Assembly: GCF_030649675.1 (NCBI RefSeq)
Contig: NZ_JAUTDR010000027.1
Coordinates: forward strand, 1-55,376
Reading direction: 5' to 3'
DNA from: Haliea sp. E1-2-M8
GTDB taxonomy: Bacteria > Pseudomonadota > Gammaproteobacteria > Pseudomonadales > Halieaceae
DNA length: 55,376 nt
The position numbers were made by a program, and so were the translations under genes. The notes under the pieces are model-generated. The model did not search any database. It was not told the DNA's origin and was given only the letters and a program-made list of their open reading frames with translations. Shown here piece after piece: positions 11,404-29,759 of the stretch (the stretch's first letter is position 1; every line of letters begins with the position of its first letter).

Positions 11404-12617
11404 GCGGTGGCCTCCTGTCTTTCTTTTTCTGGCAGGTGCACCTGGTCCACGGCGTAGGTGTAGATTACATCGGTGCTGGAGTTGAGCGCCGTTTCCGCCG
11501 AGTCCTGAATGACGCTGATCACAAAGCCTACCGCGACGACCTGCATCGCTACGTCCAGCGGAATGCCGAACAGGGAACACGCCAGCGGCACCAGCAGCAG
11601 GCTGCCGGAGGGCACCCCGCTGGCGCCGCAGGCGGCCAGCGCAGCGATGACACAGAGCAGCAGCGCCGTGGCGAAGGACACTTCAATGCCCAGGGTATTG
11701 GCGGCTGCCAGGCTGAGCACCGTGATGGTAATGGCGGCGCCGGCCATATTGACGGTGGCACCGATCGGAATCGTCACCGCATAGAGTTCTTCGCTGATGC
11801 CGATTTTTTTCGCCAGGTTGAGGTTGACCGGAATATTGGCCGCGGAGCTGCGGGTGAAAAACGCGGTGACGCCGGATTCCTCCAGGCACTTGAAGACGAT
11901 GGGGTAGGGGTTGCGCTGGGTTAACAGGAACACCAACAGCGGGTTTACCAGCAGCGCCATCACCAGCATGCAGGCAACCAACAGCCCGGCAAGGCTGGCG
12001 TAACCCGCCAGCGCCGACAGCCCGGTGGTCGCCACGGTGGCGCAGACCAGTCCGAAAATACCGAGCGGTGCCAGACGGATCACGTAGCCGACAATATCAC
12101 CGACACCTGTGGCCAAGGTCTGCAGATGCTCCTTGAACGTGGCGTTGGCCTTGCGAAAGCTCAGGCCCAGCAGAATGGCCCAGGTCAGGCAGCCGAGGAA
12201 GTTGCCCGTGAGCAGGGCATTTACCGGGTTATCAATGAGTTTGAACAGGACATCGGCCAGCACCGCGGTCACCGCCAGCGGTGGGCTACCCGTGGCGCCC
12301 TCGCTCAGCGCAATCGTCTGCGGGAACAGCTGGCTCATCACCACAGCAACTACCGCGGCGCTGACCGTGCCCAGCAGGTACAGGGCCAGGGTCAACAGAG
12401 ACTTGCGGCCGTCGCTGCCGCTCTCATGTTTGTTGGCGATGGCGGACATCACCAGCAGCATCACCAGCAGCGGCGCCACCGCCTTCAGCATGCCGACAAA
12501 CAGGTCCCCCAACAGACCCAGCGGCGCCGCCTGCGCCGGTGCCAGCCACCCCAGCAGGGCACCCAGTCCGACGCCAATAAGTATCTGGGGCACCAGGCCC
12601 AGTTTCAGTATAGACAT
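11400..12617 (-). CDS. sstT: Serine/threonine:Na+ symporter SstT
   Basis: A 405-residue polytopic transporter of the dicarboxylate/amino acid:cation symporter (SLC1-like) family. The N-terminus ([17 protein letters not shown]), the serine-rich re-entrant segment [14 protein letters not shown], the NMAGAAITI motif and the late segment [18 protein letters not shown] are those of SstT, which imports serine and threonine with sodium; E. coli SstT has a similar length. It is first of a two-gene unit with the PhzF-like gene (ATGA overlap) and diverges from the YdcZ-like pair across about 130 bases. Confidence 0.92.
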
Positions 12618-12746
12618 GATTTTTCACTCGCTGAGCTGTCGTGTGTACCGGATAACATGCCCGATGATACACTCTCGTATCTCGCGGACACACCACCGTC
12701 GATGTTTGCCAAGCTGAGCGCACTGCGGCCAATCAGGTAGCCCATA

Positions 12747-13211
12747 GTGATCACTTTCAGCACACTCTTCCTGCTAACCTGTTGCCTGGCGGTCGGCGCC
12801 TGCGGTGCCTCGCAGGCCGGGATAAACTCGCAGCTGCGCCTGGCCCTGCACTCACCCATTCAGGCCGCGTTCATCTCCTTCCTCACCGGCACGCTGCTGC
12901 TGGGAGTGATTGCACTTCTGCTCGGCGCGCCCTGTTTTACACCGGACGCCCTGGCAGCCCTGCCCTGGTGGGCATGGCTGGGAGGCCTGCTGGGCGCTTT
13001 CAACGTGGCCATGTCGGTTTATCTGGCACCCAAATTGGGTGCGTTGACGCTGGCCATCAGCATCATCTGCGGCCAGGTGCTGGCGTCCATGGTGCTGGAC
13101 CACAACGGCTTGCTGGGCTACCCGAGGATTGAACTGTCCGCGTCCCGGCTGCTGGGGGCAGCGCTCATTGTGGCAGGGGTACTTCTTGTCGCCAGGAAGC
13201 AGCCCGCTTGA
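12747..13211 (+). CDS. YdcZ-type (DUF606) small DMT-family transporter, copy 1
   Basis: A 154-residue protein with about five hydrophobic helices, of the YdcZ/DUF606 branch of the drug/metabolite transporter superfamily. Landmarks are GASQAGINSQLR, the FISFLTGT turn, PWWAWLGGLLGAFNV and LGALTLAISIICGQV. It starts with GTG. The stop overlaps the ATG of a second copy (TGATG). About half the standard ten-helix DMT length implies function as a dimer; the adjacent paralogue makes a heterodimer likely. Substrate unknown. Confidence 0.8.
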   Translation: MITFSTLFLLTCCLAVGACGASQAGINSQLRLALHSPIQAAFISFLTGTLLLGVIALLLGAPCFTPDALAALPWWAWLGGLLGAFNVAMSVYLAPKLGALTLAISIICGQVLASMVLDHNGLLGYPRIELSASRLLGAALIVAGVLLVARKQPA

Positions 13212-13666
13212 TGAGAAGCCCAGGCAAGTATCTTCTGCTGGCGGGCAGCGTTGCGGTCGGCTGCTCCCTCGCCTCCCAGGCCGGCATCAATGCCGAGTTG
13301 CGCACGGCCCTGGGATCGCCAGTGCAGGCGGCATTCATTTCATTTCTGCTCGGCACACTTACCCTGGGGTGGATCGTACTCACCCAGGGCCGAGCCTGGT
13401 TCAGGCCGGGCGCTATTGCCGCCACCCCCTGGTGGGCGTGGCTGGGCGGCATTTTCGGAGCATTCATTGTCACCATGTCGCTTTTCCTGGCTCCCAGGTT
13501 GGGGGCGTTGACGCTGGCGCTTGCCATTATTTCAGGCAAGGTGGTTACGTCCCTGGTGCTGGACCAAAAGGGGTGGCTGGGATATCCAAAAGTTCCCTTG
13601 TCGAAGTCCAGAGCTGCCGGCACCCTGCTGATGTTGATCGGGGTGCTACTGGTGGCGGCAAATTGA
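13211..13666 (+). CDS. YdcZ-type (DUF606) small DMT-family transporter, copy 2
   Basis: A 151-residue paralogue of the preceding gene, sharing the same landmarks in the same order (ASQAGINAELR, FISFLLGT, PWWAWLGGIFGAF, LGALTLALAIISGKV, WLGYPKVPLS). The ATG at 13211 shares one base with the upstream stop, so translation is coupled. The pair most probably arose by tandem duplication and encodes two halves of one transporter, as in other paired small multidrug or guanidinium-type DMT systems; that pairing is inferred. It ends 20 bases before the convergent iorB-like gene. Confidence 0.8.
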   Translation: MRSPGKYLLLAGSVAVGCSLASQAGINAELRTALGSPVQAAFISFLLGTLTLGWIVLTQGRAWFRPGAIAATPWWAWLGGIFGAFIVTMSLFLAPRLGALTLALAIISGKVVTSLVLDQKGWLGYPKVPLSKSRAAGTLLMLIGVLLVAAN

Positions 13667-20737: not shown

Positions 20738-20854
20738 TCTTCCACTGCAACAAAAGCTTCCCGAAACTGTAAGACCACTGCAATCAAAGCAGCGCATTGT
20801 GGACCAAACCAACGGTAACTGCGTCATGCGCAGTTGCCATGGCGCGGGAAGCTC

Positions 20855-22576
20855 ATGCCCAACAGTATCGAAACCTATCTCCTGCTTGTACCAGCGGCAC
20901 TGGTTTTCAGCTACCTGCTCTGGAGCAGGCTGCGTCTGTCGCTGGCCAAACATCCCTCCCTGCGCGGCCACGCCAAATGGTCGCGCCGGATAGCCCGCCT
21001 GGTACCCTATTACAGTTTTGGACCGGAGCACTACTTCAGCAGTGATGGCGCGCCACACGATGTTGCTGACCAGCGACGGACGGGATTCGCCAGGCTATTG
21101 CGACATCTGCACACCCGCTGCCCCAAAAGCCTCGAGTTCGGTGCAACGCTGGACACCGGTATTTCCGATGTAGACTTCACCAGCGCCTACCGCGTGCCCT
21201 TCCCCTACCGGGATGGTCTGGCCAAAGCCCTGCGCCAGGGCTCCATTGTCGACGGCAGCGACGGGGTTCGCCTGCGCGATATCGACGGCAACTGGCGCTA
21301 CGACCTGTCGGGATCCTACGGCGTAAACGTTTTCGGCTACGATTTCTACAAGGAATGCCTTGCAGAGGCCATGCGTATTGCCGGGCCGCTGGGACCGGTA
21401 CTCGGCCCCTACCACCCGGTAATCAAGGACAACGTGAAACGGCTGCAGACCATTTCCGGCCTGGATGAAGTATCCTTCCACATGTCCGGCACCGAGGCGG
21501 TGATGCAGGCGGTGCGTCTTGCCCGCTATCACACCGGACGTTCACACCTGGTCCGCCTGTGTGGCGCCTACCACGGCTGGTGGGACGGCGTGCAACCGGG
21601 TGTGGGCAACCAGCGCAAGACCGGCGACGTCTACACATTGCGCGACCTCAGCGCGCGCACTCTCAGCGTGCTGGAAACCCGCCGGGACATCGCCTGCGTC
21701 CTGATCAACCCGCTGCAGGCCCTGCATCCCAACGCGGATGCAGCCGGTGATGCCACCCTGGTTAGCAGCAGCCGCAGCGCACATTTTGACCGCACCAGCT
21801 ACACCCGCTGGCTGGAGCAAGTGCGCGAGGTGTGCACGCGGCGTGGGATCGTGCTGATCTTCGATGAAGTCTTCACCGGCTTCCGACTTGCCCACCGCGG
21901 CGCGCAGGAATACTTCGGCATCCAGGCCGACATGGTGACCTACGGCAAGACCCTGGGTGGTGGCCTGCCCGTGGGTGTACTGTGCGGCAGCCAGCAGCTG
22001 ATGAAACGTTTCAAGCAAGAGCAGCCGGCGAATATTGCCTTTGCCCGCGGCACCTTCAACTCTCATCCCTATGTCATGGCCGCCATGAACGTTTTCCTGC
22101 AGCGTCTGGATGAGTCGTATTACCAGTCCCTTTACCGGGACGCGGATGCACTGTGGAACGAGAGAGCAAAGCAGCTGAATGACCAGCTCGCCGCCGCCCA
22201 GCTCCCTGTTCGGTTAGTCAACATGCATAGCATCTGGACTGTGCTCTATACAATCCCCTCCCGTTACAACTGGATGTTTCAGTTCTACCTGCGCGATCAG
22301 GGCCTGGAGCTTTCCTGGGTCGGCAGTGGCCGCCTGATCATGAGTCTCAACTATTCAGACGACGACTTTGCGGCGGTCATGCAACGATTTCTTGACGCGG
22401 CCCGGCAAATGGCCATGGACGGCTGGTGGTGGCAGACAGAGCAACTCACCCATCACACAATCCAGCGCCAGTTGGCAATGGAAATGCTGCGCGCCAGATT
22501 CGGTCTGCAGCCAGCGGCCGGTCGCTCATCCGCAGCGACCGACAGTATCGACGCCATCACCGGGAGAACGCCATGA
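20855..22576 (+). CDS. Membrane-anchored class III PLP aminotransferase
   Basis: A 573-residue protein of the class III aminotransferase/glutamate-1-semialdehyde aminomutase fold, with an N-terminal hydrophobic helix (YLLLVPAALVFSYLLW) that should anchor it in the inner membrane. The PLP pocket is present: LCGAYHGWWDG, IFDEVFTGFR and lysine K365 in MVTYGKTLGGGLPVG. It is longer than a typical GSA aminomutase because of the anchor and an about 100-residue N-terminal extension. The start at 20855 follows a GGGAAG ribosome-binding site. It overlaps the next gene by four bases (ATGA) and heads a four-gene operon with a PHP-glycosyltransferase fusion, a PS decarboxylase and an Mpo1-like protein, suggesting an amino-group transfer on a lipid-linked or membrane substrate. 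This role is inferred. Confidence 0.82.
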   Translation: MPNSIETYLLLVPAALVFSYLLWSRLRLSLAKHPSLRGHAKWSRRIARLVPYYSFGPEHYFSSDGAPHDVADQRRTGFARLLRHLHTRCPKSLEFGATLDTGISDVDFTSAYRVPFPYRDGLAKALRQGSIVDGSDGVRLRDIDGNWRYDLSGSYGVNVFGYDFYKECLAEAMRIAGPLGPVLGPYHPVIKDNVKRLQTISGLDEVSFHMSGTEAVMQAVRLARYHTGRSHLVRLCGAYHGWWDGVQPGVGNQRKTGDVYTLRDLSARTLSVLETRRDIACVLINPLQALHPNADAAGDATLVSSSRSAHFDRTSYTRWLEQVREVCTRRGIVLIFDEVFTGFRLAHRGAQEYFGIQADMVTYGKTLGGGLPVGVLCGSQQLMKRFKQEQPANIAFARGTFNSHPYVMAAMNVFLQRLDESYYQSLYRDADALWNERAKQLNDQLAAAQLPVRLVNMHSIWTVLYTIPSRYNWMFQFYLRDQGLELSWVGSGRLIMSLNYSDDDFAAVMQRFLDAARQMAMDGWWWQTEQLTHHTIQRQLAMEMLRARFGLQPAAGRSSAATDSIDAITGRTP

Positions 22577-25284
22577 CTGTCACCCATTTTGATCGCGCCC
22601 GCCAGGCTGATTTCCGGCCATCACTCGCAAGCGGATTCAACAGCTTTCTGGAGCAGGAGGAGACACGTTTTGCTGAGGAAAATCGGCTCCGCATCGACCT
22701 GCACTGCCACGACCTCAACAGCGACCAACCGGATGAGCTCTGGGGACGGATACTGCGATTGCCCGAGACCTGGCTGGAGAGCAAAAAGCTGGTGCAATGC
22801 CTGCGCCAGCACGGCAGTGATGTTGTTACCGTAACCAATCACAACAATGCGCGATCCTGCTGGCAGCTACTGGAAAAGGGAGAGGATGTGCTGGTGGGTG
22901 CCGAATTCACCTGTCACTTTCCCGATCGTGACCTGTTTGTGCATGTACTGACCTATGGCTTCAGCCCAGCACAGGAAGAAATTCTCAATCGCCACCGACG
23001 CGATATCTATCAGTTTCTGCGCTACGCTGCGGAGCATGATCTGCCGGTGATTCTGCCGCACCCACTGTTTTTGTATGCCCACACCGGAAAGGTCGATCCC
23101 GCCGTGTTCGAACTGCTGGCGCTCCTGTTCCAGCGGGTCGAGGTCCTGAACGGGCAGCGCGACCTCTGGCAGTCGACGCTGACACTCAACTGGGCCCGTG
23201 GCATCACCCCGGAGAAAATGCAGGCGTGGGGCCGCAAGCACCGGCTGAACCCCGACGATTTCGGTGTGGATCCGCAACGCCCAAAGGTGCTGACCGGTGG
23301 ATCGGATGACCACATGGGAATTTTTGCCGGACAGTGTGGCTCCTTTCTGGAAGTACCTGACCTGCAATACCGCCTGCTCCGGGAGAAGCCGTCTGCGCTG
23401 GCGCTGGAAGCCATTCGCAAAGGGCGCATTGCGCCATATGGCCACGTCGGCGAAAACCAGAAACTCAATATCGCGCTGCTGGATTACTTTTCCCAGGTAG
23501 CCACACGCATTCAGGATCCCGGCTTGCTGCGGATTCTTCTACACCGCGGTGAAACCCGCGACAAGCTTGCCTGTCTGGCAATCAGCAATACTATGCTGGA
23601 ACTGCAGAAAAAGAAGCACGCCCGCAAGTTTTTCGAGTTTGTTCACGACGCCCTCCAGGGCAAGAAGCCCAACCGCATGCTGAAGTGGAAGGTCGCCAAA
23701 AAATACCGCTTCTGCCTCACCCATCTGCAGCGGATCGCCGCCAGCAAGCAGGGAACGCCTGAACAGTTCGTGGCGACAGTAAACCAGTCTATCGGCGAAC
23801 TTTTTACCGATCTGAATCGTCTGCTGATAGCGAAAGTTGAGAAGTCCGGGCTGGTGACGTCCGACAACAAGGCCCTGCGTTTTTCCACCGAAGAGCTGAC
23901 CCGCAATTTCGAGATTCCAGCTCAACTGAGCGCTCTGGTATTCGGTGGCGACAATCCACATCGCCATACCAGCGGGCGCAAGGTCACGGAACTGCTGGAC
24001 AGCATTTCATTTCCGCTGATGATCTCGGCGGTTCTGGCGGGCGCTACCGTGGCCAGTACGCGTTTGCTCTACCAGAATCGACAGTTTCTCAACAATTTTG
24101 CCCAGCACCTTGGCAGCAACAGCCATAATTGTCGGGCCCTGCACCTCACCGATACCCTGTTTGACAGGAATGGCGTGTCCAGCTCCCTGACCGGCAAGCT
24201 ACGGCAGATTCAGCAGAGAGACCTGCCGATCGACCTGCTGGTCTGCGACCCCGAGCGGGCGCCGGAGCCTCACCTGCTGGTGTTCAAGCCGCTGGCGAGT
24301 TACACCCTGCCCGACACCGGTGGCCAGCAGCTAAGAATTCCCGACCTGCTGCAGATTGGCCGTGCGTTCTACGAAGGTGGCTATGATCGCGTCGTCTGCT
24401 CTACCGAAGGCCCCATGGTCCTGGTCGCGTTGTTTCTCAAGTACATGTTCAATGTACGCTGCTACTTTTTCATGCACACCGACTGGCTTGAGTACATCAA
24501 GGCGACGACTGACGCCACGCCTCACGAGCGCGATCGCATACGGCGCCTGCTGCGACTGCTCTACCAGCAGTTCGACGGCGTTTTTGTGCTGAACACAGAG
24601 CACAAACGCTGGCTGACAGGTCATGAGATGGAACTGGAGCCGACACGGGTATTTCTCACTGCGCATCAGGCGCCCGAGGCCGCTACGGACATCCTGCCGG
24701 TGGAGAAGCGAAAGTTGTTCCCCGACGCCACCGCAGAAACTCCGGTACTGTTTATTGCCTGCCGTCTCAGCCAGGAAAAGGGCCTGGGGGATCTGCCGCA
24801 GATTCTCGCCAGGGCGCGGCAGGCACTGCCGGATCTGCGACTGGTAATAGCGGGCTCCGGCCCGGAGGAAGAAGCACTGCGACAGCAGTTGCCGGACGCC
24901 GTGTTTCTGGGCTGGACCGATCAAACTCGACTCGCCCAACTGTACCAGGGTCTGGACCTGTTCGTGTTCCCTTCGCGTTTTGACACTTTCGGCAACGTGC
25001 TGCTGGAGGCGTTTGCCCACGGTATGCCCGCGGTGGCCTATGCCACCAAGGGCCCTGCAGACATTATCCAGCCGGGGGTTAGCGGATACCTGGCTGCGGA
25101 CGAGATCGAGTTTGCCGCCCGTATCGTGGCTCACTTCCAGCAACCGGACCGGCACGCGGCAATGCGTACCGGCGCCAGGGCTCGTGCCGCGGAATACGAA
25201 GGTGGTGCAATCATGGATGAGTACCTGCGCAATCTTGACCTGCCGTTGCGCGCGGGCTCCATCAAGCAGCGTTCGGTGGCCTGA
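22573..25284 (+). CDS. PHP phosphoesterase - GT4 glycosyltransferase fusion
   Basis: A 903-residue bifunctional protein. Residues about 35-290 form a PHP metal-dependent phosphoesterase domain with HCHD (44-47), VTNHNN, GAEFTC, VILPHP and GGSDDH, the conserved ligand set. A helical linker of about 200 residues follows. From about residue 522 a GT4 glycosyltransferase begins (LHLTDTLFDRNGVSSSL), continuing with a nucleotide-sugar lobe from about 726: FIACRLSQEKGLGDL, VIAGSGPEEEAL and VFPSRFDTFGNVLLEAF. The C-terminal lobe resembles PimB/MgtA-type glycolipid mannosyltransferases. PHP plus GT4 in one chain suggests removal of a phosphate and glycosylation of the same acceptor. The start overlaps the aminotransferase stop (ATGA). 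Substrate unknown. Confidence 0.82.
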   Translation: MTVTHFDRARQADFRPSLASGFNSFLEQEETRFAEENRLRIDLHCHDLNSDQPDELWGRILRLPETWLESKKLVQCLRQHGSDVVTVTNHNNARSCWQLLEKGEDVLVGAEFTCHFPDRDLFVHVLTYGFSPAQEEILNRHRRDIYQFLRYAAEHDLPVILPHPLFLYAHTGKVDPAVFELLALLFQRVEVLNGQRDLWQSTLTLNWARGITPEKMQAWGRKHRLNPDDFGVDPQRPKVLTGGSDDHMGIFAGQCGSFLEVPDLQYRLLREKPSALALEAIRKGRIAPYGHVGENQKLNIALLDYFSQVATRIQDPGLLRILLHRGETRDKLACLAISNTMLELQKKKHARKFFEFVHDALQGKKPNRMLKWKVAKKYRFCLTHLQRIAASKQGTPEQFVATVNQSIGELFTDLNRLLIAKVEKSGLVTSDNKALRFSTEELTRNFEIPAQLSALVFGGDNPHRHTSGRKVTELLDSISFPLMISAVLAGATVASTRLLYQNRQFLNNFAQHLGSNSHNCRALHLTDTLFDRNGVSSSLTGKLRQIQQRDLPIDLLVCDPERAPEPHLLVFKPLASYTLPDTGGQQLRIPDLLQIGRAFYEGGYDRVVCSTEGPMVLVALFLKYMFNVRCYFFMHTDWLEYIKATTDATPHERDRIRRLLRLLYQQFDGVFVLNTEHKRWLTGHEMELEPTRVFLTAHQAPEAATDILPVEKRKLFPDATAETPVLFIACRLSQEKGLGDLPQILARARQALPDLRLVIAGSGPEEEALRQQLPDAVFLGWTDQTRLAQLYQGLDLFVFPSRFDTFGNVLLEAFAHGMPAVAYATKGPADIIQPGVSGYLAADEIEFAARIVAHFQQPDRHAAMRTGARARAAEYEGGAIMDEYLRNLDLPLRAGSIKQRSVA

Positions 25285-25287
25285 GCA

Positions 25288-26211
25288 GTGAACCAGCTGA
25301 TCCGCCAACTGAGCCAGCAAGAGCAGCTCAACTTTCTCCTCACCAACCGCATCCCACGGCGGCTGGCGACACAGTTCATGGGCTGGTTCAGCCGTATCGA
25401 AAGCCCGCTGCTGACACGCGTGGCAATAGCCCTGTGGCGCCTGTTTGCGGATGACCTCAACCTCGAAGAGGCGAAGACGCGGCGCTTCACCAGTCTGCAG
25501 GCCTGCTTCACTCGCGAGCTAAAACCCGGTGCGCGCACTGTGGATACGCACCCGGATATTGTCACCAGCCCCTGCGATGCCATTGTCGGCGCCCGCGGCA
25601 GGATCATGGGCACGACCCTGTTCCAGGCCAAGGGCTTTCCCTACGAACTGGCGGATCTCATCCCGGACCGTGAACTGCAGGAACAATATCGGGACGGGGT
25701 TTTCGTTACCCTGAGGCTCAAATCCAGCATGTATCACCGCTTCCATGCACCGGTGAACTGCACGCTGGAACAGGTCACCTACATTGCCGGGGATACCTGG
25801 AATGTGAACCCGATCGCATTGAAACGCGTTGCAAGGCTCTACTGCAAAAATGAGCGGGCGGTACTGCCGCTGCAGACAGAGCGCCCGGACAGCGCTGTCT
25901 GTCTGGTACCCGTAGCTGCCATTCTCGTCGCGAGCATCAAACTGCACTGCCTGGACACAGCACTGGACTTGCATTACCGCGGACCGCAGCGAATCAACTG
26001 TAAGGCAAGCGTGCGCAAGGGCGATGAACTGGGTTATTTCCAGCATGGCTCCACCATCATCCTGTTTGCCACCGGCAACCACCTGTTTTGCCCCGACACC
26101 GAGACCGGCAGCCGGGTCCAGATGGGGCAGGCCCTGCTGCAACGGGATACTGCCGGGGAACACTCCCAATCCACCCAAGACACTGCGTCACCACCGGAGA
26201 TATTGTCATGA
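25288..26211 (+). CDS. psd: Phosphatidylserine decarboxylase proenzyme
   Basis: A 307-residue phosphatidylserine decarboxylase family protein, with MYHRFHAPVNC, the DTWNVNPIAL segment and a self-cleavage site at HGST, where S255 would become the pyruvoyl group. Most bacterial enzymes have LGST, so the first residue differs. It converts phosphatidylserine, or a related archaetidyl or aminolipid, to the ethanolamine form. It starts with GTG three bases after the preceding stop codon and overlaps the next gene by four bases (ATGA). Its presence in this operon rather than beside a housekeeping gene suggests a specialised copy; whether the genome has another psd is not visible here. Confidence 0.85.
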   Translation: MNQLIRQLSQQEQLNFLLTNRIPRRLATQFMGWFSRIESPLLTRVAIALWRLFADDLNLEEAKTRRFTSLQACFTRELKPGARTVDTHPDIVTSPCDAIVGARGRIMGTTLFQAKGFPYELADLIPDRELQEQYRDGVFVTLRLKSSMYHRFHAPVNCTLEQVTYIAGDTWNVNPIALKRVARLYCKNERAVLPLQTERPDSAVCLVPVAAILVASIKLHCLDTALDLHYRGPQRINCKASVRKGDELGYFQHGSTIILFATGNHLFCPDTETGSRVQMGQALLQRDTAGEHSQSTQDTASPPEILS

Positions 26212-26825
26212 CCTTTGCTGAAGAACTCCACCAGCAGCGCTGGGACGACCACCGCTACTACCACCACAACCGGGTCAACCAGTCGCTGCATCTGCTCAGT
26301 GCCTGCTGTTTTATCGCCAGCTATCTGCTGCTTCTGGTCGACCCCGTGGTGGCGGTGATGATTGGCTGGCTGCTGGCCATGGTGTTGCGCCAGGTCGGCC
26401 ACTTCTTCTTCGAACCCAAGACCTGGGACGAGATCAACCAGGCCAGCCACGAGTACAAGGAGAGCGTCAAGGTGGGCTACAACCTGCAGCGCAAAGTGGT
26501 ACTACTGTCGATCTGGGTCGCCCTGCCCGCCCTGCTCTGGATCAGCCCGAGTCTTCTGGGCCTGCTCACAGACCACCAGGTGAGCAAGGGTTTCCTGCAT
26601 AACACCGCGATTCTCTGGTTCTTCACCGGGGTCGGCGCGGTAGTGTTTCGCACCGTGCATCTGTTTTTCCTGAAGGGGGTGCAATCGGGCCTGGTGTGGG
26701 CCACCAAGATCATTACCGATCCCATTCACGACATCAGGATCTACCACCCGGCACCGCTGTATCTGCTCAAAGGCGAACTGTACGACGACATGAGCCAGTG
26801 GTATCGGGAACGTCCCGCTGAATAG
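26208..26825 (+). CDS. Mpo1-like (DUF962-type) membrane protein
   Basis: A 205-residue membrane protein with about four hydrophobic segments. The N-terminal YYHHNRVNQSLHLL and the later RQVGHFFFEP line up in order and spacing with the histidine motifs of yeast Mpo1 (HHNPKNVLIH and FVGHGVFEK), an iron-dependent dioxygenase for alpha-oxidation of 2-hydroxy fatty acids. I made this comparison by eye. The gene ends a four-gene operon and overlaps psd by four bases (ATGA), supporting a lipid-related role. The C-terminal half adds a cytoplasmic-looking segment, DPIHDIRIYHPAPLY, not part of yeast Mpo1. Confidence 0.62.
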   Translation: MTFAEELHQQRWDDHRYYHHNRVNQSLHLLSACCFIASYLLLLVDPVVAVMIGWLLAMVLRQVGHFFFEPKTWDEINQASHEYKESVKVGYNLQRKVVLLSIWVALPALLWISPSLLGLLTDHQVSKGFLHNTAILWFFTGVGAVVFRTVHLFFLKGVQSGLVWATKIITDPIHDIRIYHPAPLYLLKGELYDDMSQWYRERPAE

Positions 26826-26848: not shown

Positions 26849-27724
26849 TCAGCGTTTGCGATAGGGGATATCGCAGTAAGTGATGTCGCGGCGGGGCGAC
26901 GCGCCGCGGCCCTGCAGGTACAGGGCCAGTGAGTTCATTGACAGGTCGATATTGCCGGTAGGGCCGAGGAAGGCGTGCTCAATCGCCAACCGGCCCTGCT
27001 CATCCCGCAGATCGAGAGGGAACCAGGGAATCAGCATGGAGTTACCCTCACGAAATTGCACCTTGCCGGAAGCTGTATCACCGATCATCGGTGACACAAT
27101 GCGCCACTCCTGCTCCTCCTCGAAAGCCGGGTGCTTGAGCACAGCGGCAATACGCAGCAGGTCACCCTCGATTGTCTGAAAGCGACGCACCCACTGCCGG
27201 TTCTGGCTTGCGGTCTCATCGGTTTCATCACTCTCTTCGGCCAGTGCTTCCACCGCATCGATGATTTCATTGATCATCTTTTCCTGCTGCGAGGGCGCGT
27301 AAACGCAGTGCCCCACTTCAAAATGCTGGCGCCGGGCGCAATCGAGGATGTGTTCCGGTGCGAAGCCGAGGCTCACGCCCTTGCCGTGAACGCTGTAGCC
27401 GCGCCACTGGCTGAGCAGATTGCCATTGCCGCGGAAAGAGGCGCAGAACAGCATGGGGCCGCTCACCACACGGTAGGTGAGCCAGTCGAGGAAAGTGGTG
27501 AGCAAGGCCGGGTTGTCCACCCCGGCGACGATGCGCTGGGTTACCTGCTCGCCCAGAAGATCCAGGGTATGGCGCAGCTCGGTTGAGTCGTTCATGTAGC
27601 GGATGTCGCTACAGCGCAGCTCGGCACTGTCGACGATACCCAGCAGGCCACTCAGGGTCGTGTAGTGATACAAGGTCTCCCGGGGCGGCATTGCGAACAG
27701 GCGCTGTGAGATGAGATCGAACAT
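26849..27724 (-). CDS. DUF2971 domain protein
   Basis: A 291-residue cytoplasmic protein of the DUF2971 family, recognised from YHYTTLSGLLGIVDSAELR, RYMNDSTELRH, FCASFRGNGNLLSQWRGYS and the later EEEQEWRIVSP motif. The family has no established function; some members occur in defence islands or beside toxins, but there is no such context here. The start is placed at the ATG at 27724 because the upstream frame runs into a biotin-carboxylase gene that ends at 27768; no strong ribosome-binding site is visible. It is the last gene of the FadE-Atu unit, 43 bases after the carboxylase. Confidence 0.75.
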   Translation of the reverse strand: MFDLISQRLFAMPPRETLYHYTTLSGLLGIVDSAELRCSDIRYMNDSTELRHTLDLLGEQVTQRIVAGVDNPALLTTFLDWLTYRVVSGPMLFCASFRGNGNLLSQWRGYSVHGKGVSLGFAPEHILDCARRQHFEVGHCVYAPSQQEKMINEIIDAVEALAEESDETDETASQNRQWVRRFQTIEGDLLRIAAVLKHPAFEEEQEWRIVSPMIGDTASGKVQFREGNSMLIPWFPLDLRDEQGRLAIEHAFLGPTGNIDLSMNSLALYLQGRGASPRRDITYCDIPYRKR

Positions 27725-27767
27725 GGGGTTATTGTTGCCGCTGAAGATGACGAGTACAAGGTTCAGC

Positions 27768-29759
27768 TCAGGATTCGCTGATCTCCAGAACCGTCGCCCC
27801 CGCTGCTGCCTGTACCCCCGCCTGCACATGCACCGCGCTGACCTCGCCGCTGACCTGGGCCAGCAGGCGGTGCTCCATTTTCATGGCCTCGATCACCAGC
27901 AGTTCCTGCCCCTTGACGACGCGGTCGCCGGGAGCAACCAGCACCTGGAGCACATTGCCATGCATCGGCGCCTTGACAATGCCGCTGCCGACCGCCGCCT
28001 CGTCGCCGCGGGTAAAGGCGAGCTGGTTCACAAGTTCACAGGCGGCGCCACCGAGTTGCAGGCTTACCACGCCGCGGCCGGTCAAGGTGTAACAAAGGCG
28101 GTGGGTCACGCCGTCGATCAACACCTTTGCAGTGCCCCTGCAGTCGTCATTCAGCCAGCGCAACGGGTGTTCGCTCGCCGCTACAGTGCAGACATAGTCA
28201 GCGGTACCGACCTGCTGCACGTAGACGTCAACATCCTCTTCCTCTGCAATCTGGTAGCGGTAATGCACGCTGATGTGGCGCAGGCCGGACCAACCGCGCA
28301 GCGATATCTCGGGAAAAACGCGCGCTCTCTCCGATGCGGCCACCCCATCGCGATACTGCAACACCGCGGCGCAGCAGAGCTGCGCCAACTCGGGGGCCGG
28401 CGCCTGCACCCCCTGCGCAAACTCTTCAGCAATAAAGGCAGTAGTGGCGGCGCCAGCCTGGAACCGGGGGTTGGCAACGACATCCAGCAGGAACTGCCGG
28501 TTACTGGCGGGACCGAACAGCACCGTAGTCTGCAGGGCGCGGTGCAGGCGCCGGCAGGCGGCGGCGCGATCCTCCCCCCAGGCGATGATCTTGGCCAGCA
28601 TGGGGTCATAGAACGGCGACACTTCCTGCCCCGCGGCGAGGCCGTGATCCACGCGGATGCCGTCTCCCACCGGAGGCTGCCAGCGTTGAATTGTGCCCGC
28701 TGCGGGCAGGAAGTCATTGACCGTATCTTCCGCGTACAGGCGCGCCTCGATGGCATGGCCGGTCAGGGTGACGTCCGCCTGCGCAACAGGCAGCGGGTAG
28801 CCCTGGGCAATCTGCAATTGCAGGGCGACCAGATCCAGCCCGGTGACCATCTCGGTAACCGGATGCTCCACCTGCAGGCGGGTGTTCATCTCCAGAAAAT
28901 AGAATTCGCCTGCGCTGTCCAGCAGAAACTCCACGGTACCCGCGCCGCAATAGTCGATACTGCGCGCCGCATTGACCGCCGCGTCACCCATGGCACCGCG
29001 TAGTTCGGGGGTCAGTACCGGACAGGGCGATTCCTCCAGCACTTTCTGGTGCCGACGCTGGACCGAGCAGTCGCGCTCACCCAGATGAACATGGTTGCCC
29101 AGACTGTCGCTGAAAACCTGAATTTCGACGTGCCTGGGCCGCAGCAGCGCCCACTCCAGAATCAGCTCGCCAGAGCCAAAGGCATTTTCTGCTTCCGAGC
29201 GGGCGGCCGCGAGGGCCGCGGGCAGATTGGCCAGGTCTGCCACCAGGCGCATGCCGCGACCGCCACCTCCGGCAGCCGCTTTCACCATCAACGGCGCCCC
29301 AATCTCCTGGGCCGCGGCAAGCAGCGTTTCATCGGACTGGTCCTGACCCTGGTAACCGGGAATACAGGGCACACCGGCCGCCAGCATCAGGCGCTTGGCC
29401 GCGGCCTTGTTGCCCATGAGTTCAATAGCGCCGGCGGAAGGGCCGATAAAGACCATGCCGGTATCCTCACAGGCGCGGGCAAAGGCCGCGTTCTCGGAGA
29501 GGAAGCCATATCCGGGATGAATCGCCCCTGCCCTGGTGGCCATAGCAGCCTGCAGAATGCGTTCGGGGTCGAGGTAGGACTGCTTGGCCGGCGCCGGACC
29601 GATCAGCACCGCTGCATCCGCCAGCAACACATGGGGAGCGCCCGCGTCGGCGGCGGAGTACACGGCGATGGTACGGTAACCTTGGGCCTGTGCGGAGCGA
29701 ATAACCCGCACCGCAATCTCGCCCCGGTTGGCCACCAGAACGCTATCAAACTGTGCCAT
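27768..29759 (-). CDS. atuF: Biotin-containing acyl-CoA carboxylase alpha subunit (geranyl/methylcrotonyl type)
   Basis: A 663-residue subunit with an N-terminal biotin carboxylase domain (SVLVANRGEIAVRVIRSAQ, the ATP-grasp loop AAAGGGGRGMRL, FLEMNTRLQVEHPVTE) and a C-terminal biotinyl domain with the biotin-accepting lysine K627 in EAMKMEH. Length fits the alpha subunits of 3-methylcrotonyl-CoA (LiuD) and geranyl-CoA (AtuF) carboxylases. Presence of an AtuA gene in the same operon argues for the geranyl-CoA type. The ATG at 29759 lies five bases after the beta-subunit stop codon; an upstream start would overlap it. Confidence 0.85.
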   Translation of the reverse strand: MAQFDSVLVANRGEIAVRVIRSAQAQGYRTIAVYSAADAGAPHVLLADAAVLIGPAPAKQSYLDPERILQAAMATRAGAIHPGYGFLSENAAFARACEDTGMVFIGPSAGAIELMGNKAAAKRLMLAAGVPCIPGYQGQDQSDETLLAAAQEIGAPLMVKAAAGGGGRGMRLVADLANLPAALAAARSEAENAFGSGELILEWALLRPRHVEIQVFSDSLGNHVHLGERDCSVQRRHQKVLEESPCPVLTPELRGAMGDAAVNAARSIDYCGAGTVEFLLDSAGEFYFLEMNTRLQVEHPVTEMVTGLDLVALQLQIAQGYPLPVAQADVTLTGHAIEARLYAEDTVNDFLPAAGTIQRWQPPVGDGIRVDHGLAAGQEVSPFYDPMLAKIIAWGEDRAAACRRLHRALQTTVLFGPASNRQFLLDVVANPRFQAGAATTAFIAEEFAQGVQAPAPELAQLCCAAVLQYRDGVAASERARVFPEISLRGWSGLRHISVHYRYQIAEEEDVDVYVQQVGTADYVCTVAASEHPLRWLNDDCRGTAKVLIDGVTHRLCYTLTGRGVVSLQLGGAACELVNQLAFTRGDEAAVGSGIVKAPMHGNVLQVLVAPGDRVVKGQELLVIEAMKMEHRLLAQVSGEVSAVHVQAGVQAAAGATVLEISES

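Follow-up and report, generated by a model that had tools for sequence, protein, structure and literature searches.

A cassette of four genes in Haliea sp. E1-2-M8 (Halieaceae) is probably a Pho-regulated, horizontally spread kit for the remodelling of membrane lipids under phosphate starvation. A fusion of a PHP-like domain with a GT4 glycosyltransferase (PHP-GT4) would do the work of PlcP and Agt, and an aminotransferase (AT), an Mpo1-like protein (MPO) and a PS-decarboxylase-family enzyme (PSD) would together give a phosphorus-free, amine-bearing lipid. The cassette lies in what is here termed the window, i.e. the whole stretch of DNA analysed, positions 1-55,376 (55,376 nt) of contig NZ_JAUTDR010000027.1 from assembly GCF_030649675.1 (Table 1). 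The original prediction, that the four coupled genes make or remodel an amino- or glycolipid, is borne out in part: there are two other psd genes in the genome, and the four genes are together across distant relatives; what it missed were the predicted Pho boxes, the phosphate-related neighbours and the exchange between PHP-GT4 and PlcP, and hence the likely context, phosphate starvation. Of the reactions that it assumed, action on phosphatidylserine by PSD and shortening of 2-hydroxy fatty acids by MPO are candidates only; the cassette PSD forms a separate group with an altered cleavage motif (HGST), and the best solved relative of AT is the aminotransferase domain of a lipopeptide synthase, which aminates an acyl chain. 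No description of the AT/PHP-GT4/PSD/MPO set was found in the literature (open-licence papers).

Table 1. Features of the cassette in the window, and genes found beside PHP-GT4 in other loci
Feature	Position in window, or locus	Strand	Description and basis
Pho-box-like site CTGTAAG-ACCA-CTGCAAT	20767..20784	+	88 bases 5' of AT start; score 9.5/12; 0/30 shuffles as high
AT	20855..22576	+	Class III PLP enzyme, GSAM/MycA-aminotransferase-like, N-terminal hydrophobic stretch; Pfam, structure match
PHP-GT4	22573..25284	+	PHP-like phosphoesterase domain, ~residues 1-300 (N-terminal); GT4 glycosyltransferase domain, ~520-890 (C-terminal)
PSD	25288..26211	+	Cassette-type pyruvoyl enzyme, GTG start, HGST cleavage motif; Pfam, alignment
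MPO	26208..26825	+	Multi-helix membrane protein, Mpo1/DUF962-type His motifs; profile, alignment
PhoX and 5'-nucleotidase-like gene beside PHP-GT4	L034		
PhoD beside PHP-GT4	L036		
Phosphonate-type binding protein beside PHP-GT4	11 loci		Nitrincola and Desulfotignum records among them
OlsF-like gene alone beside PHP-GT4	L059, L060, L068		

Organization and spread of the cassette

All four open reading frames of the arrangement AT, PHP-GT4, PSD, MPO that had been proposed for 20855-26825 are present on the + strand, and the tight junctions described at the same time are as stated: an ATGA overlap between AT and PHP-GT4, a 3-base gap between PHP-GT4 and PSD, and a further ATGA overlap between PSD and MPO. 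Tight ATGA coupling was rejected as a trait of the family, intergenic gaps ranging from overlap to more than 100 bases; among 41 cassettes, with the window included and starts set by homology, a 4-base overlap is found at AT/PHP-GT4 in four and at PSD/MPO in five. The flanking genes of the window, for a P-type ATPase, a Cys/Met-metabolism PLP enzyme, a DUF2971 protein and carboxylase subunits, were likewise rejected as members of the system, and flanking gene clusters are common only to subsets of relatives. The DUF2971 gene (26849-27829) is directly 3' of MPO and converges on the cassette, with no link to it seen.

Conservation was assessed in 70 loci, found by searching genome contigs once for the fusion with six exact peptide patterns, which does not amount to an unbiased census. 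The four genes are all present, and in the same order, in 40 of the 70 (per-gene identity 49-91%), a figure that includes L012, L022, L024 and L044, where a contig end cuts AT. Because of this the arrangement is far beyond chance, and on the matter of neighbourhood conservation, raised when the operon was first proposed, the genes prove not to be scattered and remain together across distant relatives. Records among the 40 are titled Halioglobus, Colwellia, Paraglaciecola, Psychromonas, Marinobacter, Mariprofundus and Ghiorsea. Three loci (L030, L048, L066) are compatible with the cassette but cut, and three others (L034, L036, L041) have a close PHP-GT4 without the cassette. In 23 loci PHP-GT4 is diverged, at ~39-48% identity (one fragment reaches 57%), and no cassette was seen; of these, L059, L060 and L068 end inside PHP-GT4 and L069 and L070 show the GT half only. 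L073 is a chance match. In six of the 23, all from Desulfotignum, a distant relative of PSD (25-28%) is encoded on the opposite strand. In a Mariprofundus MAG (L015, 3710-6358), the matched PHP-GT4 stretch contains one internal stop, reflecting either assembly error or decay.

Full-length PHP-GT4 is present in one of seven other genomes of the genus, in none of 17 further genomes of the family and in one of 13 further ones of the order, and at E<=1e-120 in 3 of 369 genomes forming an even sample of the class, all 3 of them with AT. Because its presence is patchy, the cassette has likely spread horizontally.

Link to phosphate

The cassette and its phosphate link are well supported by sequence. 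Upstream regions were scored with the consensus CTGTCAT-N4-CTGTCAT, as cited in a passage of PMC8528852. Of 38 cassette upstreams, 35 have their best match on the + strand, many of them 40-110 bases before AT. With 34 non-redundant cassette upstreams, the mean best score peaks only at spacer 4 on the + strand, at 8.71; other spacers give 7.7-8.3, the opposite strand gives 7.74, and none of 200 permuted motifs was as good. The same behaviour is displayed by 17 non-redundant upstreams of PHP-GT4 genes without the cassette (mean 8.97, with the peak again confined to spacer 4 and the + strand and no permuted motif of 200 reaching it), a set that contains a misfiled cut cassette locus, L044 (score 6.5), and L069, with the GT half only, whose start is a guess. 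A score of at least 9 is attained by 18 of 38 cassette upstreams versus 15 of 284 for other ORFs of the same loci, these controls beginning at mechanically chosen ORFs (P ~1e-10); the other 20 of the 38 score below 9, and single sites are often weak.

Where AT is found without PHP-GT4, most of the signal upstream of AT is due to one genus: its eight loci examined all score 10 to 11.5 of 12, with nearly one sequence, and the other 15 loci reach 7.5-9.5. Enrichment in these loci is clear before AT, is on both strands before Agt-like genes and is slight before MPO, with none upstream of PlcP (6 loci).

Phosphate-related or OlsF-like neighbours (Table 1) are present in 16 of 26 loci that hold PHP-GT4 with no cassette seen, and family searches backed only the binding protein, one permease and the OlsF-like protein of L058 among such neighbours. 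No phosphate-related neighbour was seen in 10 of the 26. In one Neptunomonas locus (L072, 12695-18245) the genes beside PHP-GT4 are for cobalamin synthesis, and no phosphate gene was seen. An island comprising an OlsF-like gene, a phosphonate-type binding protein and PHP-GT4 is found in L049, L051, L052, L058, L062 and L065, each with a Pho-box score of at least 9.5 of 12; five of these records are titled Nitrincola and L065 is titled Oceanospirillales.

Exchange of the fusion protein with PlcP

Lipid renovation by PlcP and Agt is known, from passages of PMC8528852, PMC4796936 and PMC9239053, in Pseudomonas aeruginosa (PA3219/PA3218), Phaeobacter, Pelagibacter and Methylosinus. Where PMC4796936 deals with the genome context of plcP, glycosyltransferases and btaBA are named, and AT, MPO and PSD are not among the genes named in that passage. 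Agt was expressed in E. coli K-12 in the same study. The cassette resembles the PlcP-Agt pair in its predicted Pho-box control, in the combination of a putative phosphoesterase with a GT4 glycosyltransferase and in a likely step from diacylglycerol (DAG) to glycolipid. The differences are that its phosphoesterase is PHP-like, not calcineurin-like, and fused to the GT4 enzyme, and that AT, MPO and PSD are added.

The case for replacement comes from AT-bearing genomes, which number 11 of 369 (class) and 25 of 398 (phylum), 34 of them distinct, and 36 with the addition of G006 and G035 from the search of relatives. Of these, 12 have PHP-GT4 and 24 have a PlcP match; no genome has both and none lacks both, and by genera the division is 6 versus 12. 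Fisher's test of the exclusion gives P 8e-10 when genomes are counted and 5e-5 when genera are, with related genomes treated as independent; two of the 12, G006 and G035, were picked for holding PHP-GT4, and four (G035, G223, G572, G517) are 81-90% complete. With one PlcP-like query, no PlcP-type calcineurin-like phosphoesterase was found at E<=1e-10 in the genome of the window or in the other 11 PHP-GT4 genomes, and PlcP is present in every tested AT-bearing genome without the fusion. In six of 23 stretches with AT and without PHP-GT4 (L144, L146, L147, L149, L150, L207), a PlcP-like gene is on the same stretch as AT. Because the 12 genomes with PHP-GT4 show no PlcP and all 24 without it do, PHP-GT4 most likely replaces the PlcP-Agt lipid-renovation pair, and the exchange of the one for the other is well supported by sequence.

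The N-terminal part of PHP-GT4 has no PHP match in Pfam and none in PDB. Its residues H44, H46, H90, E111, H163, D245 and H247 are invariant in an alignment of 41 sequences, as HxH, H, E, H, DxH, which we take to be the order of PHP metal ligands. Single-sequence profile matching with hhalign weakly pairs the first motifs with E. coli RNase AM (E 0.009 but probability 4.6%) and the last motif with E. coli YcdX (E 0.13, probability 0.5%), and gives no match with YcdU, an unrelated comparison. The domain is termed PHP-like from its motifs and these two weak matches, and may be a phospholipase-C-type substitute, mainly because of the exchange with PlcP. The GT4 domains are above Pfam cut-offs, with E735, K736 and E812 invariant. 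An AlphaFold model of the fusion has a mean pLDDT of 85.8, and the best 50 matches listed in a fold search with it are glycosyltransferases, which is uninformative on the PHP part.

Aminotransferase, Mpo1-like protein and decarboxylase

AT matches Aminotran_3 at 108 bits, above the Pfam cut-off, a GKT/GKS motif containing the PLP lysine is present in 39 of 41 members, and an N-terminal hydrophobic stretch is above threshold in 34 of 41. Its best solved relative is the aminotransferase domain of MycA (mycosubtilin synthase, PDB 6kfm; E 3e-51), which comes ahead of GSAM for two divergent members, those of the window and L144. AT differs from the MycA domain in its hydrophobic N terminus and in not belonging to a synthase. 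The MPO of the window, at 23.2 bits, is just under the Mpo1-like (PF06127) cut-off of 24; among 30 aligned members, 25 have an Mpo1-like match at E<=0.001 (best 2.9e-06), and H19, N24, H28, Q62, G64, H65 and E69 are invariant in all 30, the conserved His motifs presumably being the Mpo1 motif. No solved fold resembles the MPO model (pLDDT 87.9; best Foldseek E 4.0).

The two proteins travel together. AT (E<=1e-60) and MPO (E<=1e-5) match the identical 11 of 369 genomes of the class, and every one of the 23 stretches with AT and without PHP-GT4 also carries MPO, adjacent or fused to AT in 22 and ~9 kb from it in L147. They form one ORF in L149 (7507-9723) and L150 (8265-10493), of 738 and 742 residues, in a single genus. 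BtaA-type (DUF3419), PlcP-like, GT4 and methyltransferase genes surround the fused gene there, and the whole is a compact island of lipid genes for phosphate starvation. Betaine lipid synthesis by BtaA/BtaB, which also yields a phosphorus-free head group under phosphate starvation, adjoins AT-MPO in two genomes of one genus; matches to the BtaA family are strong in 2 of 13 genomes and weak and split in a third, with none in the genome of the window.

At the locus level, 13 of 20 non-gamma AT genomes were examined, six of the other seven holding PHP-GT4. A methyltransferase adjoins MPO in 12 of these 13 loci (213-241 residues; 396 in L201), and for the three tested PmtA is the best match, at 125-156 bits. 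In L205 a gene for an LplT-type lysophospholipid transporter (12194-13495) comes after an Agt-like gene, beside AT, MPO and PSD.

PSD matches PS_Dcarbxylase (PF02666) at 187 bits, above the cut-off. The catalytic D and H and the cleavage-site G and S are invariant in 61 of 61 cassette-type PSDs, and HGST is present in 60. In a tree of 71 rows these 61 cluster together to the exclusion of all others (support 0.88), a grouping favoured by their having been chosen at >=45% identity to the window PSD. The ten other rows represent nine proteins, the genome's own housekeeping PSD being entered twice, and show MGST (6), LGST (3) or FGGS (1). A cassette-type PSD is near AT in 17 of the 23 stretches without PHP-GT4; only 29-35% PSD relatives were found in the genomes of L144, L149 and L150, and no PSD is on the stretch in L192-L194. 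The presence of a second psd gene had been put forward as a check on the proposed operon, and the genome of the window holds two besides the cassette copy (three PS_Dcarbxylase genes). One of them adjoins a gene read as rsgA, which we take to be the usual site of the housekeeping copy. The third (L003 904-2217, contig C21) has, by eye, a signal-like N terminus and GGS for GST at the cleavage site, and is possibly secreted.

That class III PLP enzymes include ethanolamine-phosphate phospho-lyase raises the alternative of phosphorus salvage. PSD, with PmtA in some cases, would funnel PS to PE or PC, a PHP or PlcP enzyme would cleave these, AT would be a phospho-lyase freeing phosphate from phosphoethanolamine, and the sole new lipid would be the glycolipid. 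PSD and PmtA would then have their ordinary substrates in a Pho setting. However, the nearest matches of the two divergent AT members are the aminotransferase domain of MycA and GSAM, no protein named phospho-lyase is among the best 60 of 160 matches to the window AT, and a housekeeping-like psd is present in the genome. Salvage of a soluble compound also leaves unexplained both the hydrophobic N terminus of AT and, in two genomes, its fusion to an Mpo1-like membrane protein. Salvage is unlikely.

Proposed route and remaining alternatives

For the favoured reading, lipid remodelling under phosphate starvation, every catalytic step and product of the cassette is one that we infer. The PHP-like domain would free DAG from phospholipid, as the PlcP exchange suggests, and the GT4 domain would, from its family and context, glycosylate the DAG to glycosyl-DAG. 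The AT and MPO pair may then carry out an amination and an oxygen-dependent cleavage, on either the glycosyl-DAG or an acyl chain, and PSD would decarboxylate an amino acid head group to leave a phosphorus-free stand-in for PE. In genomes having one, a PmtA-like enzyme would methylate this to a stand-in for PC.

That PSD and PmtA paralogues adjoin enzymes for phosphorus-free lipids suggests a PS-PE-PC route duplicated onto a scaffold free of phosphorus. Paralogues of both its enzymes are in the clusters, though unlike those of the ordinary route the cassette PSDs are a separate group with HGST, and the three PmtA-like proteins are well short of the PmtA cut-off of 390. More specifically, and only tentatively, AT, MPO, PSD and the optional PmtA-like enzyme may be a complete route to a phosphorus-free mimic of PE or PC, in which the sugar of glycosyl-DAG would be aminated and oxidatively cleaved to an O-linked amino acid, PSD would convert this to an ethanolamine ether and the PmtA-like enzyme would trimethylate it. 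A start from pentopyranosyl-DAG would yield exactly the algal betaine lipid DGCC, the biosynthetic genes of which are not known to us; this is chemistry on paper and very unlikely to be what the cassette does.

A further possibility, as improbable as salvage, is that AT and MPO alter the acyl chains of ordinary or ornithine-type lipids by amination, oxidation or shortening, with no link to the head group, and that PSD merely adjusts PE. Such reactions would fit the amination of a beta-keto acyl chain, as performed by the MycA aminotransferase, and the use of 2-hydroxy fatty acids by Mpo1, and OlsF-like genes adjoin three cassettes (L007, L015, L035). The OlsF ornithine lipid synthase does resemble the proposed system in giving a phosphorus-free aminolipid, and an OlsF-like gene neighbours PHP-GT4 or the cassette in several loci, but its chemistry is that of an acyltransferase, and Pfam finds no domains other than acyltransferase ones in the OlsF-like protein. 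Against an effect confined to acyl chains, PSD and PmtA-like paralogues, which by family are head-group enzymes, cluster with AT and MPO. An ordinary housekeeping lipid operon of incidental order, for which it may be said that each gene is in or like a known superfamily, is scarcely credible, being contradicted by the order kept in 40 of 70 loci, by AT and MPO sharing their 11 genomes (of 369) and by the extra psd copies.

Significance

If remodelling by the cassette is the correct reading, there is a second, non-homologous way to replace phospholipids under phosphate starvation, contained in one fusion protein. Surveys based on PlcP would score such bacteria as unable to remodel, none of the 12 tested having PlcP. 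AT, MPO, PSD and the PmtA-like enzyme would further constitute an uncharacterised gene set, one that probably makes an undescribed phosphorus-free aminolipid.
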